Shown one piece after another: positions 5,234-58,791 of a DNA stretch of 64,000 nucleotides. Source of the stretch: a bacterium (lineage in GTDB: Bacteria; UBP6; JAFGXH01); contig JAMOQH010000179.1 of NCBI GenBank assembly GCA_027064085.1, positions 10,017 through 74,016 of the forward strand, given 5' to 3'. The number at the start of each line of letters is the position of its first letter. Position 1 is the first letter of the stretch. Position numbers and translations under genes: made by a program. Under the pieces are notes generated by a model. It worked only from the letters and a program-made list of their open reading frames with translations, had not been told where the DNA came from and did not search any database.

Positions 5234-5572
5234 TTACAAAATTAAATACTTTTTTAACATTTCTACTTTCTTTTTACCTATTCCCTTAAATTTTTTAAAA
5301 TCTTTGAATGTTTTTATGTTTTTCTTGTTTTTATATATCTTTTTAGCTAATTTATGAGAAATATTAGGTAAATCGTCAATTTCTTTTAAAGTGATTTTAT
5401 TAAAATGATACTTTCCGGTGAAAATATACTCTTGAGATGAAATTTCTTTTGTTTCTAATGTTTTTGGGTATAAATTAAATAAATAAGCTATTGTTATTAG
5501 CACTAAAATTAAAATGGAGAGAATTAAATCTTTATGGGCAAACTTCTCTAACTCTTTGATGACATTTTTCAC
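5234..5572 (-). CDS. ComEA-like membrane-anchored helix-hairpin-helix protein
   Basis: The protein is 112 residues. It has a short cytoplasmic N-terminus, one transmembrane helix (about residues 16-34), then a C-terminal helix-hairpin-helix DNA-binding domain with ITLKEIDDLPNISHKLAKKI followed by FKGIGKKKVEMLKKYL. This is the architecture of ComEA, which binds incoming double-stranded DNA outside the inner membrane for uptake through ComEC; a ComEC gene is present at 54379-56679. The start is GTG 5572 with AGAGG four bases upstream. It overlaps the 3' end of the cytochrome gene by 41 bases, implying coupled translation. ComEA-type HhH proteins vary widely, so competence is an inference. Confidence 0.7.
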   Translation of the reverse strand: MKNVIKELEKFAHKDLILSILILVLITIAYLFNLYPKTLETKEISSQEYIFTGKYHFNKITLKEIDDLPNISHKLAKKIYKNKKNIKTFKDFKKFKGIGKKKVEMLKKYLIL

Positions 5573-6416
5573 AAGACCTCTTTTCTTTTACAGCTCTTTT
5601 ACATATATTTTTTACTCTTTTATGTGGGCTTTCATCTTTTTTATGGCAACTCAAACAATCGTTTTCTGTATGGCAACTGACACAATTGTTTATATTTTTA
5701 TATGCAGCATTTCCGTGATTCCAATTTTTAGGGTGAATTCTGTATTTTCTATTTTGTTTTTGTAAATCACTAGTATCAATTCCTGATTTTTGATGGCAAG
5801 CCTTACAGTATTTTTCTTGTTTATGACAACTTGAGCATGAATTTAGATTTTTTTCATATTTATGAATAGTAATATAGTCAAGTGGGTGAAACTTTTCAGT
5901 TGAATTGAACTTTGATGATGAATTATGGCACTTTAAACAATATGATTTTTGGTGACACTGTAAGCAATAATTTTCGTTAGTTACTATATGTTTAGTTTTA
6001 TAATTAAATTTATCGTGTGACAATGGTTTATAGATTTTATTTTTATAGTGAGTTATAAATTTTTTATTATATGTATGGCAAGTTGCACAATCAGGTTTAT
6101 TGCTATTCGTCTTTGGGTTATGACAGTTGTTACAAGTTTTCATTTTGGGTTTTGTTATCTTACTTGCATTAATTGTATGGCAATTACTGCAAGAGAGGAA
6201 TGTATGTAATTCGTGATTAAATTTAACTCCATTAGTACTTTTTAACTTAAAAACATATTTTTTATTATTATTTTTGTTCTGATGACACTTTTCACAAGTT
6301 TTTTTATTGGTTTGTAGTACCTTTTGAGCATCTTTTATATTATGGCAACTTATACAACTTATATTTTTATGCTCAAAGTGGCTAAATGTTAAAAATATTA
6401 ATAACCAAATATTCAT
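5532..6416 (-). CDS. Secreted dodecahaem (12 CXXCH) cytochrome c
   Basis: The protein is 294 residues with a short N-terminal hydrophobic export signal (MNIWLLIFLTF). I count 12 CXXCH haem c attachment motifs: CISCH, CEKCH, CSNCH, CNNCH, CATCH, CLQCH, CLKCH, CSSCH, CKACH, CVSCH, CLSCH and CEKCH. Extra histidines between them could be distal ligands. That is about one haem per 24 residues, typical of periplasmic or outer-surface multihaem cytochromes in anaerobic electron transfer. No cytochrome-maturation or porin gene lies nearby. The 3' end overlaps the ComEA-like gene, an odd pairing of an electron carrier with a DNA-binding protein. The electron partner is not evident. Confidence 0.88.
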   Translation of the reverse strand: MNIWLLIFLTFSHFEHKNISCISCHNIKDAQKVLQTNKKTCEKCHQNKNNNKKYVFKLKSTNGVKFNHELHTFLSCSNCHTINASKITKPKMKTCNNCHNPKTNSNKPDCATCHTYNKKFITHYKNKIYKPLSHDKFNYKTKHIVTNENYCLQCHQKSYCLKCHNSSSKFNSTEKFHPLDYITIHKYEKNLNSCSSCHKQEKYCKACHQKSGIDTSDLQKQNRKYRIHPKNWNHGNAAYKNINNCVSCHTENDCLSCHKKDESPHKRVKNICKRAVKEKRSCEKCHQRVREVCP

Positions 6417-8747: not shown

Positions 8748-8776
8748 TTGACTAAGTTTATATGTAAAGTTATCAT
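8748..8776 (+). promoter_or_regulatory. Candidate sigma-70 promoter for the cysteine-rich lipoprotein
   Basis: TTGACT (8748-8753), a 17-base spacer and TATCAT (8771-8776) give a near-consensus promoter. Its expected transcript start is around 8783, only about 22 bases before ATG 8805, which has a strong AAGGAG. Confidence 0.55.
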
Positions 8777-8804
8777 TATAAAGTATTGTTTTAAGGAGTT
8801 GTGT

Positions 8805-11771
8805 ATGAATAAGTTAATTTTTTTCTTGTTTCTGTTGTTTTCGGTATTTTTTATTTCCTGCAGTGATGATCCGTCTGACCCCTGCGATAAATGTACTTCC
8901 GAGCAACGCTGTGCATCAGGAGTTTGTTTAAGTTATCATTGTTCGGCAGAGCATCCTAAAGGTGTTTGTAAAGCAGGAGAGCACTGTGATGGAACTCAAT
9001 GTGTTATATCTGTTTGTAGTGTAGAATATCCTAAAGGGCAATGTGCAAATGAAAATGAACACTGTGTAAGTGGTGTTTGTGAAGCTTATGAATGTAGTGC
9101 TGCTCATCCAAATGGAATATGCCCTAATGGTGAAGTTTGTTTGGCAAATCATCAATGCGGAGAAGTTGATTGTTCTGCAAATAATCCAAATGGGCAATGT
9201 CAAAATGGCTATGTTTGTACAAATGAAGGCAATTGTGAACCTCTTCCATGTAGTGTTCAAGCTCCAAATGGAAAATGTGAAAATATAAATCAAGAATGTG
9301 TAGCTGGAACTTGTTTAGATAAAGACAGATGTACAGAAGATAACCCTCATGGTAGCTGTGCTTTACATCAAAGGTGTGTAGAGGGAACTTGTAAAGATAT
9401 AGATTGTGGGCCTGGCAATCCAGATGGAGCATGTCCTGATGGTAAATATTGTGAAAGAGTTCTATCTTCTGGAGAGTGGACATACTCTTGTAAAGATGTA
9501 CCTCTTTCATGTACAGAAAATTCAGATTGTCCTGAAGAATATAAATGCGAAAGCGACAAATGTGTAGAGTATGTCTGCGACCCAGAATGTTCTCAATATC
9601 AAATTTGTAAATATGGTATTTGTCAAGATGATCCATTCTTTTGTAGTCCTGATAGTCAAAATGGTTGGTGTGAAGATGGTCTTGAATGTGTAGGTGGTTC
9701 TTGTCAAGTTCATGTTTTTAATCCTTGTGAAGGTGTTGATTGTGGTAACAATTATTGTATTGTAACAGATCCTAACAGTGATACTGGTTATGAATGTGTA
9801 ACAGAAAGCGAACTATGCTCTGAAAGTAATACAACTGGAAAGTGTAATGCTCCACAAGTTTGTAAAGATGGAGTTTGTTCAAATCCTAATCCTTGTGATA
9901 ACAAAACATGTAATGAGGGTGAAGTTTGTGACCCTACAGATGGAGCATGTGTTGAAAACTACTGTCAAGCACACCCTAACGCTTGTACTGAAGAACATAC
10001 TATGTGTGTAAATAAATTTGGAGATACAGATAAGTTTTTCTGTCCATGTGAATTAGGATATGAATATAGTTATACAGAACAGAAATGTAATTTAAGAAAT
10101 GATGCTTGTACGGGAAAAGATTGTGGTGAAGGTATCTGTATTACTGATGATTGGGCTTCTGATGGTTGGTATTGTGAATGTAACACAGGTATGGAATATC
10201 TTGATGAAAATGTTAAACATTTATGCATAGACCCTGCTACTTATGATTATTGTACTAGTTGGGATTGTGGAGTTGGTACTTGTCAAGAAGTTACTGAAGA
10301 TGATCATAAGTATGCAATATGTGATTGTCCCGATAATTTTATCTTTAAGTCTGAAGATAAAACTTGTGTTCCGGGTATAACATGTGGAAATACTATTTGT
10401 GATAACCCATTAAAGCAGTCTTGTGTAAATAATCAATTTTGTGAAGATCAGCTCTGTAGTGGAAACTTTCCTGAAGGAACATGTGGTAATGCTGAATCTT
10501 GTGTTCCATGTAATGAAACTGGTGACAATGATGGTTGTAATGGAGGTATGAAGTGTGAACTTACAGAAGAATGTAGTGCTTCTACTTCTGCTGGTTATTG
10601 TATGGATGGATATTCATGTAGAATGGGTATTTGTTGTAAAGGTGGAAATTGTACTACAACAGATGCAACTTTAAAGCATATTAATGAAACTTGTAATTTA
10701 GATACTAATAACTGTGTCAATGACGCAATTTGTGTTCCTACTCCAACAGGAGATGGCGTTTGTCATAAATTATGTGACCAAACTCAAGCAGACACTTGTA
10801 ATGTACTAAATACAGGAAATACAGTTTATCATTGTGTTGGTAGAAATGTGTTTGATGGAATAAACTATGATAGAATTGGAGTTTGTGCAGTTGATGATAA
10901 TTGTAATAAAACGAACAATGCTGGTTGTTATTCAAATCAGGTTTGTTTAAGTTTTAGAAGAACTAACTTTGATCAATGTTATGGATTTGATGAAAATGCT
11001 ACTCTTGGCTCATCTTGCTCAACAAGTACAGCTTCTATTGTTATAGATGACAATGGTCATACTAGACCTGGTTTTAATGTTGGATGTGGAGAAAATCTAT
11101 TATGTGTAGATGGAACTTGTGTGCCTAATTGTTCTAATAAACATAAATTTACTGATATTGATATTAATCTTTGTTATGATTCATTTACTCAGAATTATAA
11201 AACAGATAACCTTAAAGTAAAAGACCAAGATAATTTAACTTTTGAGTCTGTAAAAAAACATACTGATATTTCAACTTGTGACCCTAGTAATAATACATGT
11301 AGTAATGGAAATTCTTGTATTAAGGTACAAAACAATGACTCTGTAAATGCTTCATCTAAGGATATTGGTTTTTGTAGCCAAACTTGTAGTTTTGATTCGG
11401 TAAATTATAAATCAGAATGTGGAGGTAGCGATGTTTGTTTTAAATCAGGAAATAATTCTATTTGTTTAGCCGCATCTGATTGTAACCCTATTAATTCACA
11501 AGGCTGTGGTGAAAATGTTTGTTATCCTGTTACTTCAACTCTGAACTCTTGTATGACTCAAAGTGGTTTGGCACATATTGGTGAAGATTGTACTGGGATA
11601 TCATGTCAGCAAGGATTGTGTGTAAATGGAATATGTGCTTATCCTTGTAGTATTGGAGATGATTCATCATGTGATGCAAATGCAGGAGAAAGTTGTCAGT
11701 CTACAACTGATGCATATTTAAATAACAGTTCTCATTTTGGTTCTCCATCAACTTATGGAATTTGTCAATAA
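8805..11771 (+). CDS. Large cysteine-repeat lipoprotein
   Basis: The protein is 988 residues. Start ATG 8805 follows AAGGAG and gives a lipoprotein signal (MNKLIFFLFLLFSVFFISC); the frame is open further upstream, but 8748 lacks these signals. After the lipobox come tandem modules of about 35 residues of the pattern C-S-x-x-x-P-x-G-x-C-x-x-G-x-x-C-x-x-G-x-C (for example CSAEHPKGVCKAGEHC and CSAAHPNGICPNGEVC). EGF-like modules follow in the middle, and the last third is looser and Cys/Asn-rich. The same module occurs in the lipoprotein at 45281-46759. This is probably a disulfide-stabilised surface or stalk protein. No enzymatic motif is seen; the function is unknown. Confidence 0.85.
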   Translation: MNKLIFFLFLLFSVFFISCSDDPSDPCDKCTSEQRCASGVCLSYHCSAEHPKGVCKAGEHCDGTQCVISVCSVEYPKGQCANENEHCVSGVCEAYECSAAHPNGICPNGEVCLANHQCGEVDCSANNPNGQCQNGYVCTNEGNCEPLPCSVQAPNGKCENINQECVAGTCLDKDRCTEDNPHGSCALHQRCVEGTCKDIDCGPGNPDGACPDGKYCERVLSSGEWTYSCKDVPLSCTENSDCPEEYKCESDKCVEYVCDPECSQYQICKYGICQDDPFFCSPDSQNGWCEDGLECVGGSCQVHVFNPCEGVDCGNNYCIVTDPNSDTGYECVTESELCSESNTTGKCNAPQVCKDGVCSNPNPCDNKTCNEGEVCDPTDGACVENYCQAHPNACTEEHTMCVNKFGDTDKFFCPCELGYEYSYTEQKCNLRNDACTGKDCGEGICITDDWASDGWYCECNTGMEYLDENVKHLCIDPATYDYCTSWDCGVGTCQEVTEDDHKYAICDCPDNFIFKSEDKTCVPGITCGNTICDNPLKQSCVNNQFCEDQLCSGNFPEGTCGNAESCVPCNETGDNDGCNGGMKCELTEECSASTSAGYCMDGYSCRMGICCKGGNCTTTDATLKHINETCNLDTNNCVNDAICVPTPTGDGVCHKLCDQTQADTCNVLNTGNTVYHCVGRNVFDGINYDRIGVCAVDDNCNKTNNAGCYSNQVCLSFRRTNFDQCYGFDENATLGSSCSTSTASIVIDDNGHTRPGFNVGCGENLLCVDGTCVPNCSNKHKFTDIDINLCYDSFTQNYKTDNLKVKDQDNLTFESVKKHTDISTCDPSNNTCSNGNSCIKVQNNDSVNASSKDIGFCSQTCSFDSVNYKSECGGSDVCFKSGNNSICLAASDCNPINSQGCGENVCYPVTSTLNSCMTQSGLAHIGEDCTGISCQQGLCVNGICAYPCSIGDDSSCDANAGESCQSTTDAYLNNSSHFGSPSTYGICQ

Positions 11772-12012: not shown

Positions 12013-12273
12013 ATGATAAAATTAAACGATAAAGTTACATATAGAAAAATAGAAGATAGTATTTTAATTATTACTCCATGGGATAATGCAATGCATACCC
12101 TTGAGGATATAGGAAAACTAATTTTTGAGGCGTTAATTGATGCCAAAGAAAAAGGTGATATTTTACAAGAAATATTAGATAATTATGATGTAGAATTAGT
12201 AGAAGCTAAAAATGATTTAGAGCAATTTATTGATTCTTTAATTGAAAAAGAAATTTTTATAGAGGAGGAATAA
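12013..12273 (+). CDS. PqqD-like peptide-recognition protein (RRE)
   Basis: The protein is 86 residues. ATG 12013 has AAGGTG six bases upstream; an in-frame TTG at 11977 would add a Cys-containing stretch unlike the family. The sequence follows the PqqD fold: beta-hairpin (KVTYRKIEDSILIITP), then HTLEDIGKLIFEAL (compare Y-x-LN-x-x-G-x-x-IW), an acidic helix with YDV, and a C-terminal helix ending FIDSLIEKEIFI. PqqD-like proteins bind leader peptides of ribosomally made, modified peptides and present them to modifying enzymes; stand-alone ones are called B1 in lasso clusters. The stop overlaps the next ATG by one base (TAATG), so it is coupled to the large lipoprotein. The precursor-like peptide 5 kb downstream and the minus-strand gene set support this role. 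Confidence 0.85.
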   Translation: MIKLNDKVTYRKIEDSILIITPWDNAMHTLEDIGKLIFEALIDAKEKGDILQEILDNYDVELVEAKNDLEQFIDSLIEKEIFIEEE

Positions 12274-15200
12274 TGAATAAGTTGTTTATTTATTTTACAA
12301 CACTTATTGCATTTACATTTGTCATTACTAGTTGTAGTAGTGGAAGTAGTAATAGTTGTAAAACTAGCGAAGATTGTGATAATGGTGAAGTTTGTGTTAA
12401 TGAAGTTTGTAAAACGGATGAAACTAAAAGTAGTTTAAGTCTTATTGCTATTAATGATGGTGATTTTATTGATGGATATCGTTATGATGAAAATGGTACT
12501 CTTGATGGAGTACAATTAACTATAAACGCAAAAGCTACTAATTTTAAAGATGGTACAGACATAAGTCTAGAAATTGCTACTAATCCTAATAGTAAAGTTA
12601 CAGAGAAGTTAAAAGTTTTAGATGATGGGACTAGCATAGTTAGTTTTAGTGATTTCACTTTAAAAAATGGACAAAATATGCTTTTGTTATCAGGTAAAGA
12701 TAAATATGGCGAGTCTATTAATACAACAGTAACTATAACAGCTCAAGAACTTACTCTTGTAATAACTTCTCCAATAGAAGGAGAAACTCTTAAAGCTGCT
12801 GATGATCAAAATACTGAAGAATATTATATCCAAAAAGATGTTAAAGTAGATGTTAAGGGTTTAGTATCTGAAGATAATTTATTTGCGAAATTAGTTTTAT
12901 TTGACGGAGAGCAAGCAAAATTTTCTTATGTGGCAGAGCCTAAAGATGGTGTCGCAGTATTCGAAAATGTTGATTTTAGAGCTGGAAATTGGAAACTAGT
13001 TGCTTCTATTGATACAAGAGCCAATTCTACAGTTAGCTCTACACCTGTTAATGTTATAGCAGAATCAACAGGCGATTGTGTAGTTAAAGTCTTTCCTGAA
13101 AATGGAACAGTGATAAATCAAAAATATTTAAAGGAACATAATATTGGTATTGATAATAAAATTCCCTTGAAAGTTGAATCAAATTGCCCAGCTAATTTTA
13201 AAGTTAAATTTACTGTAAATAGTACTGAAATATACAATGGTATTCTTGTTCTTGATGGAGATAAAACTGTTGCAGAAACTTCATTTGCTTTTCCTGAAGA
13301 TATTGGTGGAGTAGGCTCTGAAGTAAGAGTAGACGTATCTGAAAATTTTGATGATACAAATGCTGATGGTGGTTTTATTGTTGCTACATATAATGTTGAC
13401 ACAATAGCACCTAACTTTGTTGAGGTAACAGAGCCTCTAGAAGATTCAATACTAAATACAGACACTGATTTAGATGGAGATGCAACAAATGGTATTCAAT
13501 TTTGGGTAAAAGGTAAAGTTGAAGGTTCTACTTCTAGTTTAAAAGTTTATATAGATGATTTAGAAAACCCTATTGGAGGAGTTCAAACTTATGATAATGC
13601 AATAGCACAAGATGGTACTTTTGATACTTCATTATTAGATAATAATCAATATACTAGTATTTCTGTTGGTGGAGAAAGAACAATTATATTTGAAGCGGTT
13701 GATGAACATGGAAATAAATCTACTTTTAACAGAAAAGTAAATGTAATGTTGTCTAACCCTAATGAATTGTCATTAAGTTTTAGTGATAATAAATTGTTAA
13801 ATCCAGATAATAAAATTAATATTAACACAGCTACAATTGGTGTTTTATTAAATAGGTTCTTAGAGGGTGTTTTGATTCTAAATGTAACCCTTAACGGAAA
13901 TAGTTATGATTATACAAATAGCGTTAATATTGATGACCCTACAAATTTATTGGGATATTTTTCTTTTACTGATTTGAGTGACGGTAGGTATATAATAACT
14001 CCTAAATTCAAGGATACCAATAACTTTAACTACACCGGTGTTAATGGATATTTAAATGTTAAAACAGCTATACCGGTTTTTAGTAATCTAAATATTGTTC
14101 AAGATACTGACAATAATAATATTTTAAACATGGCAAAAGATGCAAATGCAACTTTAGAAGGGTTTCAAACTGATATTACTATAGATACTGAAAATCTTTA
14201 TTTAGATGATTTAGATTGCGAAAATGAATCAGATAGGGTGAAAGCAACTTTATATAAAATAAGTGATAATGGTGATGTTTTAAGTGAATCAGCTAAAGTT
14301 GCTTGTGATGGTAAAGTGAAATTTACTAATGTTACATTACCTGAGGGTAATTATAAATTATTTATAAAAGTAACTGATGGTTTTGGTAATATTGGAACTT
14401 TTGAAACTAGTGCTTTAACAGTAGATATAACACCTCCGGATTTAAATACTTTATTTTTAACTGCAACAACAAATTCTAATGAAAAGCCTGTTACAACAGA
14501 CAGCTTGTTTTTATCTATAGATGATAAGGATAGTAATACCACAGGATTACAAAGTAATTTTAAGGCTTATTCTTTAGATTCTGTTTCAATTGAACTTAAA
14601 TTTGATTCAATCGACCAAACTGAAGATGTTGTTAATGGAGTAGTTGATTTTGGCGACTTAACATTACAGAATGGTGCAACTAGCATTGAATTAATCGCAA
14701 CAGATAATGTAGGTAATATAACAAACAAAGAAATAACCAATGTAGTTGTAGATACACTAGTGCCTTCTTTGGAACTTTCTATGTCAAAAACAACTATAGA
14801 TGATTCAGATGATGAAGATGATACAAGAGCAGGAATTCAATTTACGGTAACTATTAATAATATGCAAAATATTGAAGATGGACAAGTTATTTATATTCAA
14901 AAAAGTGTAGATGATGGTAATGGTAATATTACATGGAATAATGTAGCTCAAGTTCTTAAAGATGCGAATGATAGCAAAAATATTGTGATTACTCTTCCTC
15001 TTGGAACATATAAACTAAGAGCAATGGCTAGTGATGTTAATAACCAGGAAGGTTATTCTGCTGAAATTGATATGGATGTAACATCTTCTAATTGTGCTAT
15101 TGTTTCTGTGAAAAAAGGAAATTCTGAATTAGTTGCAGGTACAAACTTTTTTAATGCTAGCGATGTTGATGTAAATGGTAATGTTTCATTAATAATAACT

Positions 15201-17411
15201 TATACTGCATCATGTAATGTTTTAGGTGGAACAACTATTATAGCTAAGAAAAATGGTGCAAATGCAGCAAGTACTAATATAGATACAAGTTTAAGTTCAA
15301 CTTTGGATATTCCTTTTACTGATGGCGAAAATATTTCATTATTATTTGAAATTAATTCCACTCCTGTTGGTTCATCTTCTTTTACTATTAAGGTTGATAC
15401 TAGTGCTCCTGCAATATCAAGAGTATTTCCAACATTATCAAGTATTACTTATGTTAATGCTAATAATACATTAATTGGAACAACTGGTAATGAGGATAAA
15501 ATTGGCGATTTAAATGATGCTTTACAAAATGCACAATTATCATTAACTGTAAAGGTTGAAGGGGCAAAAAATGGTTCAATTGAGATGATTGCAAATGATG
15601 GAAGTAATGATGTGTCTATAGTAACCAAAAATAATATTGCCTCTAATGATGAAAATATTGTTTTAAGTGGAACAATTGCTGATAATAAAACTCACGATTT
15701 AAAATTTAAGGTTACAGATGAAGCTGGTAATACAGTAACCACTTTATTATATAATGCAGTTGTTGATGTTACCAATCCTGGTAATTTAGCAACTTTAGAT
15801 TATGATGGAATGAGCAATACCGAAAGAAGAAAAGCTGAACTTAATTTAACATGGAATCAATCATCTACTGATGATGTGAGTAAATATGTTATTAAATATT
15901 CAACAAGTTTGTTTGATGATACTAGTTTTGAAAATCTTGATGGAACAAATAATCAGGAAATTGTAATTAATTCACCTGATTTAACAACTGCAAATTATCA
16001 AAAACTAATAACCTCATTAATTTTTCAAAAGAACTATACTTTTGGGGTAAGAGCTTATGATGAAGTTGGAAATGCAAGTAATATTTTGATTCGTTCTACT
16101 GGAACTGATTTGAATTTATTATCAAAAACTTTAGATACATCAAGTTTTGATACTAATGATAGTATTTATAAGATAAAAGATGTTGGTGATATTAATGATG
16201 ATGGATATAATGATGTTGTTGTTACTCAATATGTTGCATCGGGTTGGGACGGTGTAATTTATATTTTTTATGGAACTGGAGATCCCGATACTATTGTATC
16301 TCCACAGATTATCGAAGGAGTTGATGGAAGTTATGAAGGGCTTGGTTCAAGTATTACTTCTGGAGATTTTAATGGAGATGGTAAAACCGATTTGCTTGTA
16401 GGTTCAATATGGGCGGATTATTATTATGATTCAGGAAAATATTGTTATGGAGGTGGAGTATATGTTTTCTATAATCAGGGAAATGGTACTCAGATTGATG
16501 CTTCAGATAAAACGTTAATAACAAACTCCAATCTTCATCCTGTTGCTAAATTAAGAGAGGAGGGGTCATATTACTATGGAAAACTTGGAAAGTCACTTTC
16601 AGCATTAGGCAAATTAAATGGAAGTGTTTATGATAGTTTTGTTTTAGGACAAAGTTTTTCATCAGATGGTGGACGAGCTTTTATAATAGAAGGTAGAGCT
16701 GGAAAGCCTTCATCAATAGATTTAGCTTCAGCATCTAATGTTGTGGAATTATCACATGATTTTGGAGTTAATAGTTATTTTGGAAACTCTGTTACAACTT
16801 TAGGTGATTTGAATAATGACAATATTGTTGATGTTGCTGTAAGTGACCCTGTAAATAAAAAAGTTGCTATTTATTATCTTGATAACAACATTTATAGTAA
16901 CACTACACTTATTGCAAAAGCTGATAATACGGGAGATGCAACAATTTTAGAAGCTACTGGAGAAAACTATGGTAGTGAAATTATTGGCGACATTGATTTA
17001 AATAATGATGGTTATAAGGATTTGGTCGTTTCTGGATTAACTACAGGTTTGTTCTTATATTATGGTACAAATACCGGATTAGCTTCTGATTCAACATTTT
17101 CAAAGATAAATATACCCTCAGGAGGGATTGAAAATCATCCTAGTTGGAATAATAATTTCTCTGTTGCAGATTTAGATAATGATAATAAGGACGATATAAT
17201 TGTTGGAGAAAATAAGAAATTAAATATTTACCTAAGTAGAGTTAATAACTTTACGAATACATCAACACCTGATACCATCTTGGGTGAGAGTGATTTTGCT
17301 GTGGCTATTACAGGTACATTAAAAGCTTCTTCTTTTGATGTAAATGATGATGGGCTTAAAGATTTGGTTATTTGTGATATGGGTAGTAAGAATTGTTTTA
17401 TTAAATATTAG
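12273..17411 (+). CDS. Giant lipoprotein with Ig-like, FN3 and FG-GAP domains
   Basis: The protein is 1712 residues with GAGGAGG before ATG 12273. A lipoprotein signal (MNKLFIYFTTLIAFTFVITSC) is followed by one short Cys module (CKTSEDCDNGEVC). From about 50 to 1170 there are repeated beta-sandwich, Ig-like modules with recurring phrases such as VDTIAPNF, VDITPPDL, VDTSAPAI and D-x-x-GN. A fibronectin type III-like domain lies near 1189-1272. From about 1300 to the end are FG-GAP/integrin-type propeller repeats with calcium loops (DINDDGYNDVVV, DFNGDGKTDLLVG, DLNNDNIVDVAV, DLDNDNKDDIIVG, DVNDDGLKDLVI). It is probably a long adhesin-like surface protein. It sits between the PqqD-like gene and the small peptide in one operon, so it may be a partner or carrier of the peptide system, which is inference. 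Confidence 0.88.
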   Translation: MNKLFIYFTTLIAFTFVITSCSSGSSNSCKTSEDCDNGEVCVNEVCKTDETKSSLSLIAINDGDFIDGYRYDENGTLDGVQLTINAKATNFKDGTDISLEIATNPNSKVTEKLKVLDDGTSIVSFSDFTLKNGQNMLLLSGKDKYGESINTTVTITAQELTLVITSPIEGETLKAADDQNTEEYYIQKDVKVDVKGLVSEDNLFAKLVLFDGEQAKFSYVAEPKDGVAVFENVDFRAGNWKLVASIDTRANSTVSSTPVNVIAESTGDCVVKVFPENGTVINQKYLKEHNIGIDNKIPLKVESNCPANFKVKFTVNSTEIYNGILVLDGDKTVAETSFAFPEDIGGVGSEVRVDVSENFDDTNADGGFIVATYNVDTIAPNFVEVTEPLEDSILNTDTDLDGDATNGIQFWVKGKVEGSTSSLKVYIDDLENPIGGVQTYDNAIAQDGTFDTSLLDNNQYTSISVGGERTIIFEAVDEHGNKSTFNRKVNVMLSNPNELSLSFSDNKLLNPDNKININTATIGVLLNRFLEGVLILNVTLNGNSYDYTNSVNIDDPTNLLGYFSFTDLSDGRYIITPKFKDTNNFNYTGVNGYLNVKTAIPVFSNLNIVQDTDNNNILNMAKDANATLEGFQTDITIDTENLYLDDLDCENESDRVKATLYKISDNGDVLSESAKVACDGKVKFTNVTLPEGNYKLFIKVTDGFGNIGTFETSALTVDITPPDLNTLFLTATTNSNEKPVTTDSLFLSIDDKDSNTTGLQSNFKAYSLDSVSIELKFDSIDQTEDVVNGVVDFGDLTLQNGATSIELIATDNVGNITNKEITNVVVDTLVPSLELSMSKTTIDDSDDEDDTRAGIQFTVTINNMQNIEDGQVIYIQKSVDDGNGNITWNNVAQVLKDANDSKNIVITLPLGTYKLRAMASDVNNQEGYSAEIDMDVTSSNCAIVSVKKGNSELVAGTNFFNASDVDVNGNVSLIITYTASCNVLGGTTIIAKKNGANAASTNIDTSLSSTLDIPFTDGENISLLFEINSTPVGSSSFTIKVDTSAPAISRVFPTLSSITYVNANNTLIGTTGNEDKIGDLNDALQNAQLSLTVKVEGAKNGSIEMIANDGSNDVSIVTKNNIASNDENIVLSGTIADNKTHDLKFKVTDEAGNTVTTLLYNAVVDVTNPGNLATLDYDGMSNTERRKAELNLTWNQSSTDDVSKYVIKYSTSLFDDTSFENLDGTNNQEIVINSPDLTTANYQKLITSLIFQKNYTFGVRAYDEVGNASNILIRSTGTDLNLLSKTLDTSSFDTNDSIYKIKDVGDINDDGYNDVVVTQYVASGWDGVIYIFYGTGDPDTIVSPQIIEGVDGSYEGLGSSITSGDFNGDGKTDLLVGSIWADYYYDSGKYCYGGGVYVFYNQGNGTQIDASDKTLITNSNLHPVAKLREEGSYYYGKLGKSLSALGKLNGSVYDSFVLGQSFSSDGGRAFIIEGRAGKPSSIDLASASNVVELSHDFGVNSYFGNSVTTLGDLNNDNIVDVAVSDPVNKKVAIYYLDNNIYSNTTLIAKADNTGDATILEATGENYGSEIIGDIDLNNDGYKDLVVSGLTTGLFLYYGTNTGLASDSTFSKINIPSGGIENHPSWNNNFSVADLDNDNKDDIIVGENKKLNIYLSRVNNFTNTSTPDTILGESDFAVAITGTLKASSFDVNDDGLKDLVICDMGSKNCFIKY

Positions 17412-17424
17412 TAAGGAGATGAAA

Positions 17425-17544
17425 ATGAAAAAAAAGTATATAAAACCAGTTTTAGAAACAGAAGAGATACTTGAAAGAGTTGTTTTGGGTTGTTCATTAC
17501 AAGAAGGAGCTTGTGACCCTAAAGCTGGTACTTCAACAAGTTAA
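17425..17544 (+). CDS. Putative RiPP precursor peptide with YxxPxL leader motif
   Basis: The peptide is 39 residues. ATG 17425 is six bases after AAGGAG; an ATG at 17419 abuts it and is too close. The leader begins with three lysines and YIKPVL, which fits the Y-x-x-P-x-L motif that lasso-type leaders use to bind PqqD-like B1 proteins, followed by ETEEILERVVLG. The probable core is CSLQEGACDPKAGTSTS, with two cysteines eight positions apart counted inclusively, one Glu, one Asp and a C-terminal serine. HPr-kinase-like enzymes in some lasso clusters (paeninodin type) phosphorylate a C-terminal serine, and such a kinase gene is at 18519-19319. The gene starts 13 bases after the giant lipoprotein stop and ends nine bases before the convergent minus-strand operon. 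Size and motif support a precursor; the peptide class is unknown. Confidence 0.7.
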   Translation: MKKKYIKPVLETEEILERVVLGCSLQEGACDPKAGTSTS

Positions 17545-17553
17545 AAGATGAAT

Positions 17554-18522
17554 TTAAATAAACCTCGCTAATTCTATTAAAAAACTCCCTTTATCATTAA
17601 TTGTTATTTTATTTAAAGAGTTATACAAAGAATGTTTTTTATTATAATGATAAACTGTAACAACATCTATAAAATATTCTGAATTCATATCAAGTTTTTT
17701 ATTAAATACAGAAAGTTTATCAAATGAGGTTAATATTTTAATCGTGTTTTTTAAAGTTTTTATTAACTTCATAAATGTATATGTATCAAGCATTTTGTTT
17801 GAAATATCTTCAAATAGTAATGTCAAATATATTAATGCAATCTTTTCTATGGGCTTTAACAATACATAAGGATTTTTATTAATAAGAAAAGTATTTTCAA
17901 ATCCTTTAATTAGATAATGATATCTAGGGAATTTATAGTTTTTTTGATAATAATTATTCCACATATTCCAATAGTAAAATATTTCATTTTGAGTTAATTT
18001 ATAATTTTCTTTAAAAAATTCTATTAAATTTATATGATTATAATAATATCCTTCATAATCGGATAAATCATCTCTTGGAGTATAATTATAAAAATCAAAA
18101 CTAATATTTTTAGTTTGTTCAAAAAAATTATTTGTAGTAATGGGAGTTTCTCCGCTATCAGTAATAGAACAATCATAAAAATTTATAGAAATAATATAAA
18201 TATCATTTATTCTACCTAGAATTCTGTATGGGAATATATTACAAATATCAGGTTTCGCATATTTGCCATTCTCAATCTCTATATGGCACTTTCCATCATT
18301 TCTTAATTGAGGGCATACTCCAAAATTTAGAATACTATGTTTTTCTTTAAAGCAACTACTATATTCTGATTTATATTTCTTATGAAGAAGGATTTTATCG
18401 TTTCTTGTACAACAATTTATTAAACAATTTTTACATGAATAATAGAAAAAAGAATCAGGAAATAAAAATTTAAATTTTCTACCATTATTCTCTATTATTT
18501 TAAGCTCTTCAAGTTTTTTCAT
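17554..18522 (-). CDS. Cysteine-cluster (YkgJ/FliB-like) protein of the RiPP-like locus
   Basis: The protein is 322 residues. Near the N-terminus is YSCKNCLINCC, then a Cys at about 55, CPQLRNDGKCHI and KPDICNIFPYRILG. This spacing (CxxCxxxCC ... CPxLxxxGxC ... Cxx(F)PY) is that of the YkgJ-type metal-binding cluster shared by FliB lysine N-methylases, where the cysteines hold an Fe-S centre. The C-terminal two thirds are Tyr/Asn/Phe-rich and helical, without a motif I recognise. It is the last gene of the minus-strand operon, its ATG overlapping the kinase stop by ATGA. It is a candidate peptide-modifying metalloenzyme, inferred from context. It could instead be an assembly factor. Confidence 0.7.
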   Translation of the reverse strand: MKKLEELKIIENNGRKFKFLFPDSFFYYSCKNCLINCCTRNDKILLHKKYKSEYSSCFKEKHSILNFGVCPQLRNDGKCHIEIENGKYAKPDICNIFPYRILGRINDIYIISINFYDCSITDSGETPITTNNFFEQTKNISFDFYNYTPRDDLSDYEGYYYNHINLIEFFKENYKLTQNEIFYYWNMWNNYYQKNYKFPRYHYLIKGFENTFLINKNPYVLLKPIEKIALIYLTLLFEDISNKMLDTYTFMKLIKTLKNTIKILTSFDKLSVFNKKLDMNSEYFIDVVTVYHYNKKHSLYNSLNKITINDKGSFLIELARFI

Positions 18523-19319
18523 AATATTATATCCTTAAGTGGTTCGTTTAGATTAAAGCTTAATTCATCTACCGTAACATTATTATAGATTTGATTGAGT
18601 ATATTTAATATCAAATTATAAGTATATTTATCTGTATTATTATATCCAAAGATTAATTTTAGGATTTCTTGATAAAATTTTTTTTTATCAATATTTTTTA
18701 AATAATAATTTGATTTTCTTTTTAAGATAAAAATTTTTTTTAATTCTTTTTTAGGTAAAAAGTTTACAATATGTTTGGGATTATAATTAAAAGGAGTAGG
18801 ATAAATATAAAATTTTTCATTTAATTTTCTTATAAGGGTAATTTCATCATGAAGGATGGTACAGCCTTCAGATTTTAGTTTTTTAGCAAATGTTGATTTA
18901 CCACTACCACTAATTCCACTTCCTACAATTCCATAATTATCATTTATAATAGAAGATGAATGTAGTAGTAATGCATTAAATTTAGGTAAAAAATTCAATA
19001 ATATTGTTTTTATAATTAAAAAAAAATTATTTGAATCTTTATGTATTAAAAAATTTGCAGTATTTTCAATATAATTAATTTCACCATGAATATCCCATTT
19101 TTTAATTATCATAATGTCATCATTTATATTGGTAATGAAATAATCCCATTTGCCATTAATAAGCTCGTAATCATCTATTTTTATAAGTTTAACAAAAATA
19201 TCATATTCTGAATTTTCTATAATAAAATCTTTTAATATTTGTTTCATTTTGTTATTAAATAATTGATAGTCAATTTCAAATGATATAATTATATTAGCAA
19301 TAGATACCTGAAAACTCAT
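18519..19319 (-). CDS. HPr kinase-like (HprK-related) kinase
   Basis: The protein is 266 residues. The N-terminal half is a divergent domain. A P-loop at about 134-146 (GSGISGSGKSTFAKKL) is followed by CTILHDEITLIRK and IYPTPFN, as in HPr-kinase-like proteins of natural-product clusters. In HprK the P-loop and the following acidic residues bind ATP and magnesium. Homologues in paeninodin-type lasso clusters phosphorylate the precursor's C-terminal serine; the peptide encoded at 17425-17544 ends in Ser. The ATG overlaps the upstream peptidase stop by four bases (ATGA) and its own stop overlaps the next gene the same way, so the genes are tightly coupled. No HPr or PTS gene is nearby. Confidence 0.82.
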   Translation of the reverse strand: MSFQVSIANIIISFEIDYQLFNNKMKQILKDFIIENSEYDIFVKLIKIDDYELINGKWDYFITNINDDIMIIKKWDIHGEINYIENTANFLIHKDSNNFFLIIKTILLNFLPKFNALLLHSSSIINDNYGIVGSGISGSGKSTFAKKLKSEGCTILHDEITLIRKLNEKFYIYPTPFNYNPKHIVNFLPKKELKKIFILKRKSNYYLKNIDKKKFYQEILKLIFGYNNTDKYTYNLILNILNQIYNNVTVDELSFNLNEPLKDIIL

Positions 19320-19747
19320 AATTTTTTTTTCCTTTTGATTATCATTTTTATAATAGGGTGAAATGGCAGTATGTAATAATAGTATATGTTTAATATGTGT
19401 GAATTAATTATTAAATTAAATTTATTTTTCTGTATTTTAAATAAAACACCAAAATAGTTATTTTCATTTATTTCATAAAAATCATTATTTACATTATTGT
19501 CACCTTTTGTTATTATTTTATTATTTTTAATTTTGATAATTCTGTGTAGTATAAAATCATTCTTTTTAAAAAGAATAATATCCCCTTGTTTTAATTTATT
19601 AATATTTTTATATTTTATAAATACTTTATCACCCTTAGATATTAGTGGCCACATTGAACCACCGGTAGTTACATCAGTAATAAATATATCTCCTTTTTTA
19701 AGAGATATTTTTAGTAATTCCTGTTTTATCTTATTTTTTTTAATGAT
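19316..19747 (-). CDS. S26/SipW-like signal peptidase with no canonical start codon
   Basis: The motif TTGGSMWPLISKGDKVFIK holds the catalytic serine (SMWP). GDIILFK, then FILHRIIKI and ITKGDNN, give a histidine in the position used by SipW/ER-type signal peptidases. A hydrophobic C-terminal segment precedes a basic tail. The first ATG in frame (19654) lies after the catalytic serine, so it cannot be the functional start. Upstream, the frame encodes ELLKISLKKGDIFITDV back to a stop at about 19760, with AGAGG at 19759-19755 but only ATC (19747), ATT (19744) or ATA (19729) as possible starts. The coordinate given assumes ATC. Alternatively an A8 slippery run (19741-19734) joins this domain to the preceding nucleotidyltransferase by -1 frameshift. 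It probably cleaves the leader or an exported partner. Confidence 0.72.
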   Translation of the reverse strand: MIKKNKIKQELLKISLKKGDIFITDVTTGGSMWPLISKGDKVFIKYKNINKLKQGDIILFKKNDFILHRIIKIKNNKIITKGDNNVNNDFYEINENNYFGVLFKIQKNKFNLIINSHILNIYYYYILPFHPIIKMIIKRKKKL

Positions 19748-20709
19748 TTTGTTACCTCTTTAATGCCATTATTCTTAATTTTTATAAATTTATCATTTAA
19801 AAACCTTTTGTAGTCATTTAAGTTGTCAAATGTATAGTAAAATAAAAAAATCTGATTAATTCTAAAATTATTAGTCATTATCATATTTTTTAAAATTAAT
19901 TTTTCGTAAGTTTTCAAATTGATTAAATTTATGGGTACTTTCTTTAAATCAAGTTCATTTATTAATATATAAAATATTAAATAACTAATTTTTTTTATTC
20001 TGAAAAGGTTTATCATTTTTAGGAGATAATTCCAATTAATATCCTCTTTTTTAATAATTAAATATAAATCTAGAAATTTTTTTTCTACATTGATAAAATA
20101 GTCATTGGATATCTGTATTATTAAAGCAATAAGCTGATGCTCGATACAGTTTTTTTCAAAAATAACAGAGTAATCAATATTAAATTTTGCTTTTTGAATA
20201 AAGGCTATATGTAAGTCTAAACTAAGTTCATGTCCTTTATATTCTATCAAAAACTCATTTTCATAAAAACGATACTTATTTTTATAAAAGGATTTATCTT
20301 TTTTATATTTTGTTATTTTAAAATTATTATCTATTAAATCTTTTACTCTGCTTAGTTGTTTTTCATCTATTAATAAATCAATATCAGATAGAAATCTTTG
20401 TGCAATATTTTCATATATGTTTTCGGCAGTAAATGCTCCTTTATAGAAAAGATAATTAAGTCTATTTTTATTTAAAAGTGTTTTTAGCTCCTTTTTAAAG
20501 TTTAAAAGTATGATGTTTTTATATAAATTTGCTCTATATTCTTGATTTATTTTTTTATTTTCTAATATTTTTTTATTTATGGGTAAAAAATAAAACGAAA
20601 CGCTTAATTTTTTGAATTGATAATATAAATCAGTTGTATAACCAATCTCCTTTTTTAAAACTTTTTTAAAATTACTATTTAAAATACCATTTTTTAAGTA
20701 AAATATAAT
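19726..20709 (-). CDS. Nucleotidyltransferase-family protein of the RiPP-like locus, unusual start
   Basis: About 327 residues in one frame. The family signature is FLSDIDLLID (acidic metal-binding pair) with a lysine-rich stretch and, further on, HELSLDLHIAF, as in the uncharacterised nucleotidyltransferase family (NTP_transf_5, PF14907) found in lasso and PqqD/HprK clusters. Starting at the first TTG (20250) would delete the catalytic DID and most of the domain. In the full frame there is no ATG, GTG or TTG after the stop at 20721-20719. A strong GAGGAG (20718-20713) is followed only by ATT (20709) or ATA (20706, 20712). Alternatively ATG 20728, five bases after the upstream gene's stop, joins this frame if the A6 run at 20695-20690 is read as A5. 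Its substrate is unknown; some cluster homologues act on the phosphorylated peptide. Confidence 0.72.
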   Translation of the reverse strand: MIFYLKNGILNSNFKKVLKKEIGYTTDLYYQFKKLSVSFYFLPINKKILENKKINQEYRANLYKNIILLNFKKELKTLLNKNRLNYLFYKGAFTAENIYENIAQRFLSDIDLLIDEKQLSRVKDLIDNNFKITKYKKDKSFYKNKYRFYENEFLIEYKGHELSLDLHIAFIQKAKFNIDYSVIFEKNCIEHQLIALIIQISNDYFINVEKKFLDLYLIIKKEDINWNYLLKMINLFRIKKISYLIFYILINELDLKKVPINLINLKTYEKLILKNMIMTNNFRINQIFLFYYTFDNLNDYKRFLNDKFIKIKNNGIKEVTKSLKKIR

Positions 20710-20732
20710 TATCTCCTCTTAAAAACATATAA

Positions 20733-45280: not shown

Positions 45281-46759
45281 ATGAAACTATCTATAAATGT
45301 AATACTCTTAATTTTTTTTTTTATAGGAATATCATCTTGTAATGAAAAGGAAAACCCTCCTAATGATACTTGTTCACCAAGCAATTTAAATGGTAAATGT
45401 GAAGATAATAAAACTTGTGTAAGAGGTAGCTGTATTTATGAATGCAATGATAATCTAGAGTGTCCTAAAAATTATCATTGTGATAATAATGTCTGTTATG
45501 ATACAACCAAACTATGTTCGCAAAATAATTATTTTGGTACTTGCTCTGAAAATAAAACCTGTGTAAAGGGTGTTTGCAGGAATTTAAATCCATGTTCTGC
45601 CTTAAATACAAATGGAATTTGTTCATCTGAAGATAGAATTTGTTATAATGGTATATGTGTTAATAATAATAATGAGTGTAAGCCTTGGAACACAAAGGGA
45701 GATTGTCCTGAAAATTATTATTGTGATAATGGAAATTGTGTTCATAATAAAGTAGAATACCCTTGTTCATTACAATATCCCGATGGGAACTGTTCTTCTA
45801 AATTTGATTCATGTATCAATGGGATTTGTATGGATACTGAATATGCATGTGGTAAAAGTGAAATCGGAATAGATTGTCCAGCAGGTCAGTCGTGTAGTTT
45901 AGGGAATTGTATTTTTGACAATGCTAAGCTTTGTTCTGTTGATTATCCCTTTGGTTATTGTGAAAATAGTAGAAAAAAGTGTTACGATGGCGTTTGTTAT
46001 GATTTAAAAAACTCATGTTCTACTATTGATAAATTTGGAAAATGTGAAGCAAATGAAATTTGTGATGATGGACTTTGTGTTCCTGTTTTAGTTGAATGCA
46101 ATGAAACAGTTTCTTGTCCTGATACTAATAGGCAAGAATGTAAAGAGAATAAATGTATTGATAAGCCTATTTTTTGTGAAGATGGTGCTTTAAATGGATT
46201 GTGTCCTGAGGGTAAAGCATGTGTTGATTCTGAATGTAAAGATATAACAGAAGATTGTTCTAGTAGTAATTTAACAGGAAAATGCAATGCGTTAAATTTA
46301 AAATGTATAAATGGAACTTGCCTTGATAGTTCACAAGAAGATATTTGCTCATCTTTTAATTTAAGTGGTAATTGTCCAAGTGGAATGATATGCAATAGTG
46401 GAATATGTACGGGTAATGTTAGTCAGGGAGAAATTGGTAATCCATGTGTTATTGATGCTCAATGTAAATCAGAACTATTATGTGAAAAAACATTTCTAGA
46501 TGGTTATTGTACAAAAGAATGTTCAGAAAGTACAGATTGTGATGAAAATTCATTGTGTTATATGCTTTCTGCTACCAAAGGATATTGTATGGCTAAATGT
46601 TCTGTCAATATACCGAATAGTTGTTCAAGAAATAATTTAGAAGATTATATTTGTTATCCTATAAATGGTAATGATGGTATTTGTTTATATGATTGCAAAT
46701 ATAATAATTGTTTTGAAACAAATAAAACTTGTAATCCTGTAACTGGAATTTGTCAATAA
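45281..46759 (+). CDS. Cysteine-repeat lipoprotein, related to the one at 8805-11771
   Basis: The protein is 492 residues, AAGGAG before ATG 45281. A lipoprotein signal (LIFFFIGISSC) is followed by about a dozen modules with C-S-x-x-x-x-x-G-x-C-x-x-x-x-x-C-x-x-G-x-C, for example CSPSNLNGKCEDNKTC and CSSFNLSGNCPSGMIC. The module and the terminal TGICQ / YGICQ ending are shared with the larger lipoprotein at 8805-11771, so they are paralogues. It is probably cotranscribed with the PP2C-cNMP gene (15-base gap). It looks like a structural or binding surface protein. Confidence 0.85.
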   Translation: MKLSINVILLIFFFIGISSCNEKENPPNDTCSPSNLNGKCEDNKTCVRGSCIYECNDNLECPKNYHCDNNVCYDTTKLCSQNNYFGTCSENKTCVKGVCRNLNPCSALNTNGICSSEDRICYNGICVNNNNECKPWNTKGDCPENYYCDNGNCVHNKVEYPCSLQYPDGNCSSKFDSCINGICMDTEYACGKSEIGIDCPAGQSCSLGNCIFDNAKLCSVDYPFGYCENSRKKCYDGVCYDLKNSCSTIDKFGKCEANEICDDGLCVPVLVECNETVSCPDTNRQECKENKCIDKPIFCEDGALNGLCPEGKACVDSECKDITEDCSSSNLTGKCNALNLKCINGTCLDSSQEDICSSFNLSGNCPSGMICNSGICTGNVSQGEIGNPCVIDAQCKSELLCEKTFLDGYCTKECSESTDCDENSLCYMLSATKGYCMAKCSVNIPNSCSRNNLEDYICYPINGNDGICLYDCKYNNCFETNKTCNPVTGICQ

Positions 46760-56733: not shown

Positions 56734-58791
56734 ATGAAACCTAAATATTTTATAATCTTAATTATGTTATTTGGAACTTTTATTTCTTGCAATAATGATG
56801 TTAATAAAACTGTTAATAAAAAGCCATGTGTAAAAACAGGTGTTTATTGCAGAGGTACTAAACTTTATACATGTCATAATGATTTTAATAATGAAGGTGT
56901 TGAAGAGATACTTGAAGAATGTGATAATGGACAGATTTGTTCTAATCAAGAGTGCATTACTGCAACATGTGATGAAATCATTAATTGTGTTGATGGTGAA
57001 AGAAGATGTAATGATGATAATTCTTATAAAATATGTGGAAATTATGATTCTGATACTTGTTTAGAATGGGATATTAGAAATTGTGGCGAAAATTTAATTT
57101 GTAACAATGGTTTATGTGTTCTAAGTGAAGAAAATCCCTGCAATTTAATAGATTGTCAAGAGCATTCTAGTTGTAAGGTCAATGTGAGTAATAAAGCTGA
57201 GTGTATTTGCGATCCTGGGTATGAGTTAAATTCTAATAATTTATGTGTTCCTGGCTGTACTCCTGATTGTGATGGCAAAGTGTGTGGAGATGATGGCTGT
57301 GATGGCTCTTGTGGAACTTGTGCTGACGGAACTTGTAATGCAAATGGGCAATGTGAAACAATTTGTACGCCTAATTGTGATGGTAACGAATGTGGAGATG
57401 ATGGTTGTGGTGGAAGTTGTGGGACTTGTCAACAATTAGGAACACACTGCTTTGAAAATCAATGTGTTTCAGATTGTGAAAACCCTAATCCGTGTACAGA
57501 AGAGAATAGAAATATTTGTGAGATGATAGGTAATGCAATTCAGTGTAAATGTAATAATGGATTTCATTTAAGTGATAATGCTTGTATAAAAGATATAGTT
57601 GATGATTGTACAAATGTTTCTTGTGGTGCAATGCAACATTGTGATTCTACTAATGGTGACTGTGTTGATAATACCAAAATGGTAAACTGTAATATTGTAA
57701 CACCTATGAATGGGATTACAGACAATGAAAACTTACAAGTAGAAATTACTTGGAGTGATGGGAACTGGAGTAGTCCAGAAGATTGCCCTTGGCACTGCAA
57801 TGATGGATATTATGAAAGTGGAAATGAATGTTTGGCTATAACTTGTGCTGCAAACCAACATTTAGAAGATAATACTTGTGTAAGCAATGAAAAAACTGTT
57901 CCTTGTAATGAAATTGACTATGGAATAGACAATGCTCATAACGATGTTAAAGATGTAACAATTACTTGGAATAATGGGTGGCAAGAAATTCCTGATTGTG
58001 AATGGATTTGTGATGATGAATATCATGAATATACAGACCCGAATTCACTTATATCATTTTGTGTTTCAGATACACAAGTTGTAAATTGCCAAGTAAGTGA
58101 AGATTTACCAGATAATGCAATAGAAGAAACAGGTGTGACAGTTACTCAAACATGGATATATGATGATGAAAACAGTGATGAAGGTTATTGGTATACTCCA
58201 TACTGTGAGTGGCATTGTGATGAAACCAATAGTTGTTTAAGTAGTGATGAAACATCTTGTATTACAAAAGAAAATATAGATGAATGTGATGGAGAAGATA
58301 ATAATTGTGATGGCGTTGTTGATAATCTTGCTAATGGCCCAGAAAACTCTTCTTGTAATGTTGGAAATTTTTGTTTTGGAAGAGTATATAATGGACATCA
58401 CTATATTTTTTGTAATGCTCTTCTTAAAAAATGGAGTGAAGCAGAAGCGAATTGTGTAAGTCGTAATGCACATTTAGTTTCTATTGACTCAGAGGATGAA
58501 AATGAGTTTATAGAAGAAAATATTGATGATAGATATTGGATTGGCTATTATCAGAATGAAAACGGAGGTAGTGCTCCATGGTATTGGAGCAATAATAGTA
58601 CTAGTACATACACTAATTGGAACGATGGAGAGCCTAATAATTATTGTTTAGAAAAGGAATGGAGTTGGAGTAAATTTAAAAATGTTTGCGTAAAATGGGA
58701 AAATTGTGCTGAAACTTATAGTGATGGTAATTGGAATGATGCAGATTGTGATTCAAGCAGAAGATTTATTTGTGAAAAGCCACTACCTTAA
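56734..58791 (+). CDS. Lipoprotein with EGF-like repeats, MopE motif and C-type lectin domain
   Basis: The protein is 685 residues. Lipobox FGTFISCNND. Next are cysteine modules, an EGF-like unit and a tandem of CTPDCDGKVCGDDGCDGSCG and CTPNCDGNECGDDGCGGSCG at about 174 and 211, then further EGF-like modules. DECDGEDNNCDGVVDN near 513-528 matches the MopE-type metal-binding motif. The last about 135 residues are a C-type lectin fold: KWSEAEANCVSRNAHLVSI, YWIGYYQ, WNDGEPNNYC and NWNDADCDSSRRFICE, including EPN and WND calcium/sugar-site residues. It is likely a surface protein binding glycans. The stop is shared head-on with the RCC1 lipoprotein. Confidence 0.9.
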   Translation: MKPKYFIILIMLFGTFISCNNDVNKTVNKKPCVKTGVYCRGTKLYTCHNDFNNEGVEEILEECDNGQICSNQECITATCDEIINCVDGERRCNDDNSYKICGNYDSDTCLEWDIRNCGENLICNNGLCVLSEENPCNLIDCQEHSSCKVNVSNKAECICDPGYELNSNNLCVPGCTPDCDGKVCGDDGCDGSCGTCADGTCNANGQCETICTPNCDGNECGDDGCGGSCGTCQQLGTHCFENQCVSDCENPNPCTEENRNICEMIGNAIQCKCNNGFHLSDNACIKDIVDDCTNVSCGAMQHCDSTNGDCVDNTKMVNCNIVTPMNGITDNENLQVEITWSDGNWSSPEDCPWHCNDGYYESGNECLAITCAANQHLEDNTCVSNEKTVPCNEIDYGIDNAHNDVKDVTITWNNGWQEIPDCEWICDDEYHEYTDPNSLISFCVSDTQVVNCQVSEDLPDNAIEETGVTVTQTWIYDDENSDEGYWYTPYCEWHCDETNSCLSSDETSCITKENIDECDGEDNNCDGVVDNLANGPENSSCNVGNFCFGRVYNGHHYIFCNALLKKWSEAEANCVSRNAHLVSIDSEDENEFIEENIDDRYWIGYYQNENGGSAPWYWSNNSTSTYTNWNDGEPNNYCLEKEWSWSKFKNVCVKWENCAETYSDGNWNDADCDSSRRFICEKPLP

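Follow-up and report, generated by a model that had tools for sequence, protein, structure and literature searches.

A putative RiPP pathway resembling that of Linear Polyphosphorylated Peptides and linked to a giant surface lipoprotein in an uncultured bacterial phylum

A 64,000-nucleotide stretch of contig JAMOQH010000179.1 (assembly GCA_027064085.1; here called the window) from an uncultured bacterium of the phylum UBP6 contains a compact locus which, judging from its gene content, very probably makes a small modified peptide. We think it probable that the locus is a pathway for a ribosomally synthesised and post-translationally modified peptide (RiPP) that works like the pathway for Linear Polyphosphorylated Peptides (LPPs; LppA/B/K/S/N/D) described by Popov et al. 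in May 2026 (PMC13381572), with a phylum-specific surface lipoprotein as its constant partner. On the plus strand the gene for a PqqD-like protein is followed by those for a giant lipoprotein and a 39-amino-acid peptide. Convergent with this unit, on the minus strand, are the genes for an NTP_transf_5 nucleotidyltransferase, an S26-type signal peptidase, an HprK-like kinase and a protein with a CX2CX3CC cluster (Table 1). The original prediction, made from the sequence of the window, had placed all of these genes correctly. It had also described ATGA overlaps joining the minus-strand genes; these are present at the S26/HprK and HprK/CX2CX3CC junctions. The source genome, G000, is a metagenome-assembled genome (3.65 Mb, 195 contigs, 94.7% complete), and the comparison set consists of 28 genomes of its phylum.

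Table 1. Genes of the peptide locus, with positions in the window.
Feature	Position	Strand	Evidence
PqqD-like protein, probable RiPP recognition element (RRE), 86 aa	12013..12273	+	PF05402 E 1.2e-9
Giant lipoprotein, 1712 aa	12273..17411	+	lipobox ITSC, Ig-like modules, C-terminal FG-GAP repeats (PF13517 2e-15, PF01839 1e-9)
Predicted precursor peptide MKKKYIKPVLETEEILERVVLGCSLQEGACDPKAGTSTS, 39 aa	17425..17544	+	AAGGAG ribosome site; 13 nt past lipoprotein stop
Divergent FliB/CxxCxxCC-superfamily protein, 322 aa	17554..18522	-	CX2CX3CC plus GKCHI..AKPDICNIFPY motif
HprK-like kinase, 266 aa	18519..19319	-	best TIGR04355 35 bits, below cut-off 200
Archaeal-type signal peptidase I (S26), likely leader peptidase	19316..19747	-	TIGR02228 71.5 bits, 7e-20, cut-off 51.85
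NTP_transf_5 nucleotidyltransferase, about 326 aa	19726..20706	-	PF14907 73.5 bits, 2.7e-20

The linkage of the three plus-strand genes is kept across the phylum. PqqD is encoded directly 5' of a giant Ig/FG-GAP lipoprotein in 15 genomes, as judged from a PqqD search and the gene neighbourhoods (G000, G001, G002, G003, G008, G010, G013, G014, G015, G017, G019, G020, G022, G024 and G026). A small KxYxKP peptide is encoded directly 3' of the lipoprotein in all 15 genomes whose contigs reach the 3' end of the lipoprotein gene (G000-G003, G008, G010, G013, G014, G016, G017, G019, G022, G024, G025 and G026), and the whole trio is found on one contig in 12 genomes. The neighbourhood search suggested by the original prediction thus bears out its tie between the peptide and the surface lipoprotein, and homologous loci carry the small peptide that it had allowed they might lack. 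A profile of the peptide matched 14 of the 28 genomes at E <= 2e-9, with the next value only 0.03, and the fifteenth peptide was recognised by eye. Most of the matched sequences had gone into the profile, which makes their E-values non-independent; the peptides of G016 and G017 and the second copies in G014 and G024 were found by the profile itself, that of G024 being uncertain, at a contig end and overlapping the start of an S26 frame. The 39-amino-acid frame is not a chance one, because the profile finds an equivalent small gene at an equivalent position in genomes of the phylum.

The peptides have the structure of leader and core. All 15 share Y5, P8 and C30 when aligned, and the leader consensus KxYxKPxIxEExxIERKxLxA is followed by a variable core that contains at least one Cys. 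In the peptide of the window the leader is predicted to run to about G22 and the core to begin at about C23. The leaders of the g3 genomes are identical while their cores are about 40% identical, which is the pattern expected of RiPP precursors. We regard it as highly likely that the peptide is a RiPP precursor accompanied by its RRE. Among roughly 360 genomes outside the phylum the peptide profile matched G130 alone. The G130 peptides (L169, L173, L174) are grouped in twos and threes, and a PQQ-type beta-propeller gene adjoins one of the groups; the peptides have a leader, MKxYxKPxIxSExxxEKTALxC, almost identical to that of the phylum, and a conserved YEGC..LGRGK core.

That the 86-residue protein is an RRE, a point which the original prediction suggested checking, is supported by structural relatives as well as by its Pfam match. 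As a single sequence it matches the lasso peptide RREs TbiB1 (3.5e-4) and TfuB1 (2.4e-3), and the profile of its family matches the solved structures of TbiB1 (1.9e-8), LppB (9x8z; 1.5e-5) and PbaB1 (9x90; 4e-5). The LPP and lasso RREs matched by the profile bind YxxP leaders (PMC13381572). An AlphaFold2 single-sequence model of the protein (pLDDT 70) gave no meaningful match to the Protein Data Bank (PDB) with Foldseek or VIA-align and was not used as evidence. The lipoprotein encoded between RRE and precursor is 1.6-2.7 thousand amino acids long across the phylum where it is complete, and its orthologues in the same family, of 2377-2378 amino acids, are 35-36% identical to it over about 1250 amino acids. 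No leader-like YxKP motif was found in the lipoproteins, so they do not stand out as substrates for the RRE. The genomic pairing suggests that the lipoprotein may display the product or act as its partner, a proposal that we make tentatively. Elsewhere in G000 a second PqqD gene (L003, G000:C10, 8833-11508) adjoins genes for an ATP-grasp enzyme and a PLP-type decarboxylase/racemase. The N-terminus of the latter reads MKERYESPIITKNISGFSNKFG in G000 and MKKKYERPVLIKNLNGFSNKFG in G001 (L100, G001:C204, 7826-10588), which looks like an enzyme fused to a YxxP motif of the RiPP-leader kind and possibly recruited by the neighbouring PqqD.

The minus-strand genes supply the candidate enzymes. The HprK-like protein scores weakly against its named family; H120, G140-K141, T143 and D158 are invariant across the phylum, the P-loop reads GxGKST and its profile matches the PEP carboxykinase / HPr kinase P-loop fold. 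Thirteen of the 15 peptide genomes carry its gene at this locus, and a search of genome contigs with the HprK alignment gave matches in two same-family genomes only (JAFGXH01 and DYRY01). It seems likely that the kinase acts on the peptide. S33, H70, D85 and D91 of the S26 protein (A6 numbering of the alignment) are invariant, and the enzyme is likewise a good candidate for the leader peptidase. D108, D110 and D164 of the nucleotidyltransferase are invariant among same-family orthologues. Each of the 15 peptide genomes has PF14907, versus two of the 13 others, G012 and G020, of which G020 has PqqD and a truncated lipoprotein gene. This near-perfect co-occurrence, although the genes are mostly unlinked, is evidence for the nucleotidyltransferase belonging to the pathway. 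In G001 and G002, of the same family, PqqD-lipoprotein-peptide, nucleotidyltransferase-S26 and HprK are on three separate contigs, and the gathering of these scattered parts in the window is a good argument for their acting jointly. In four g3 genomes HprK is followed by a polytopic membrane protein that has a domain resembling spermidine synthase, PF01564 falling just under its cut-off (L055 6171-8567, L059 11860-14259, L090 9644-12040, L166 4267-5421).

These parts correspond closely to the LPP set. Both have a discrete PqqD-type RRE, an HprK-like kinase, a variable core and neither cyclase nor B2 protease; the Ser, His and Asp residues of the archaeal-type S26 leader peptidase match those of LppS, and both have an NTP transferase, LppN being likened by type of gene and not by Pfam family. 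The window differs in coming from an uncultured phylum outside the Bacillota, to which LPPs were described as restricted (PMC13381572), in the giant lipoprotein between RRE and precursor and in an extra FliB-like gene, and the genes are often scattered in its relatives. Outside the phylum, in G089, a complete 3.9-Mb genome of Bacteroidota appearance, L064 (2858-7273) encodes S26, PqqD (PF05402 3.5e-13), PF14907 (6.5e-37), an MsbA-type ABC transporter and HprK consecutively, next to exopolysaccharide genes (Wza/Wzc-type). No YxxP peptide was found in that stretch, an LPP-type cassette outside the Bacillota.

Several observations weigh against an LPP-like pathway in the window. An MsbA-type ABC transporter, present in LPP loci, is missing from the open reading frames of this locus, the rest of the genome not having been searched for one. 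The LPP leader YxxPxVLxHQxIxFETxxS is shared as YxxPx[VIL] only, HQxIxFETxxS being absent, and Ser3 of LPP cores has no conserved counterpart in this peptide family. In the g3 genomes no S26 gene lies close to that of the peptide, and the Fisher p of 3.6e-6 for the association of PF14907 with the peptide ignores relatedness. Furthermore, in the minus-strand frames of the nucleotidyltransferase (19726-20718) and S26 (19316-19761) no ATG, GTG or TTG precedes the conserved part, and weak expression or decay of these genes is conceivable. The sole ATG of S26, at 19654, comes one codon past the catalytic Ser, so the true start must be non-canonical, and annotation from that ATG would remove the active site. 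The candidates are ATC at 19747 or ATT at 19744, behind AAAGAGGT, for S26 and ATA at 20706 or a neighbouring codon, behind AAGAGGAG, for the nucleotidyltransferase. Good Shine-Dalgarno sites precede these codons and both frames are intact, which leaves either rare start codons or early decay. Since it has no MsbA-type transporter and only part of the leader consensus, we call the locus LPP-like and not a member of the LPP class.

The protein with the CX2CX3CC cluster had been labelled FliB-type, and profile-profile comparison with 12 FliB-like proteins upholds the label (hhalign probability 94.4, E 8.5e-8; Cys-preserving shuffles at most 8.1%, two other window proteins 0.1%), whereas no curated Pfam or NCBIfam model (PF03692, NF038110) matches it. 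The cluster and the later G-C-I..AKP..C..FPY motif of FliB and the PF03692 CxxCxxCC proteins are present in the same order; the protein differs in its length, in falling below all curated cut-offs and in having no visible link to flagellin. NF038110 found no match in the G000 genome, a search of the PDB with the protein gave none, a scan of genome contigs with it turned up no relatives, and its AlphaFold2 single-sequence model (pLDDT 35) was not used as evidence. Within the phylum it occurs in G000 only and is not a component of the conserved system, and the only sensible match outside the phylum is to a protein of FliB type in G162. FliB itself methylates lysine as a SAM-dependent [4Fe-4S] enzyme (PMC8598068; SAM, S-adenosylmethionine). 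The window protein may be a distant Fe-S relative of it and a tailoring enzyme, a prediction that we advance with reserve; that it would modify the peptide is suggested only by its place in the operon.

In this context it is relevant that six relatives (G010, G013, G014, G017, G019 and G024) have S26 together with a radical SAM gene at the peptide locus, the G010 protein matching PF04055 at 8.5e-25. Cassettes with PqqD, HprK-like, S26 and nucleotidyltransferase genes and a radical SAM enzyme also include SynChlorMet, GeoRSP and unnamed ones in L037-L050, some with small Y-x-x-P peptides; the window has its FliB-like protein where the radical SAM gene would stand. Radical SAM/HprK/S26 cassettes outside the phylum (L046, L048, L049) have Cys-Gly-rich repeat precursors with a KxYxxPxI-type leader and repeated CENGNN/CEPGSG units. 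We found no literature on the combination of PqqD, HPr kinase, radical SAM enzyme and nucleotidyltransferase or on SynChlorMet, and no such system is mentioned in the RRE genome-mining papers looked at.

These relatives raise the alternative that the system is at heart a Cys-modifying one, making a thioether or other Cys change as the f2/f3 relatives may do, with kinase and nucleotidyltransferase secondary and the FliB-like Fe-S protein having taken over the radical SAM step. The Cys in every core, the association of radical SAM with S26 and HprK in six genomes and the [4Fe-4S] SAM chemistry of FliB would all suit it. Nevertheless, 13 of the 15 genomes have HprK at the locus as against six with radical SAM, and the window, G001, G002 and the g3 genomes have no radical SAM gene at their peptide loci; we consider this explanation unlikely. 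It is less probable still that the small peptide, rather than being modified and secreted, serves as a partner in regulating or assembling the lipoprotein, whose export or display PqqD and HprK would regulate. The strict order of PqqD, lipoprotein and peptide with short gaps, and the persistence of the trio where S26 and radical SAM are missing, are what such a role would produce. The conserved leader, variable core and YxxP motif are typical of RiPP precursors, however, and similar peptides outside the phylum are multi-copy, with one group beside another beta-propeller protein.

The idea of a lasso pathway with cyclase and B2 genes at some other place in the genome is already largely refuted, and we give it very little credence. 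The PqqD protein is nearest to lasso RREs, the genome has several Asn-synthetase-like genes and paeninodin-type phosphorylated lasso clusters share with the locus a PqqD-like B1, an HprK-like kinase, an NTP transferase and a C-terminal Ser (in the three same-family peptides). Against this, as the original prediction had noted for the window, cyclase and B2 are missing: the 94.7% complete genome has no PF13471 (B2) at E <= 0.1, and PF00733 is found on other contigs and not near the locus. The leader motif is YxxP instead of WxxP, the peptidase is of another kind, the cores have no consistent ring Asp/Glu and the peptide loci of relatives also lack a cyclase. The idea of a distinct peptide-modification system survives in that the locus has an RRE and its own precursor and no lasso cyclase, but its cyclase-free gene set matches the published LPP set. 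The combination is hence not the novelty it had seemed, radical-SAM-bearing versions being common in relatives. What is new is the phylum-wide trio of PqqD, lipoprotein and KxYxKP peptide, the co-occurrence of PF14907 with it, the gathering of its parts in the window and the FliB-like protein in the radical SAM place.

In an LPP-like pathway the precursor would bind PqqD through its YIKP leader and be presented to the HprK-like kinase for Ser phosphorylation, most likely at the C-terminal Ser. This Ser is present in all three same-family peptides, and its designation as the phosphosite is a guess from those three sequences. The nucleotidyltransferase would next modify the phosphorylated residue, and the FliB-like protein could add a [4Fe-4S]/SAM-dependent change, for which Lys methylation or Cys modification would be fitting. 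Cleavage by S26 near G22/C23 would leave a core of about 17 residues, and the linear product may be exported by a route encoded away from the locus, to act at, or be bound by, the giant lipoprotein. A bolder proposal, which we consider doubtful, is that the trio represents a separate RiPP class, in which a surface beta-propeller lipoprotein displays the peptide in phosphorylated or nucleotidylated form, or is joined to it, and the Fe-S tailoring enzymes are interchangeable.

Elsewhere in the window, large Cys-rich lipoproteins with repeated Cys modules are encoded at 8748-11771, 45281-46759, 56734-58791 and 58788-60605, apparently a lineage-specific style of surface protein, and a probable multihaem cytochrome, 294 amino acids long and with numerous CxxCH motifs, at 5532-6416 on the minus strand.

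If the replacement of radical SAM by a FliB-type protein were confirmed, the FliB/CxxCxxCC superfamily would join the RiPP tailoring enzymes. The tie between an LPP-like gene set and one surface lipoprotein is an initial hint at the place where these peptides might act, and offers a concrete hypothesis for it.

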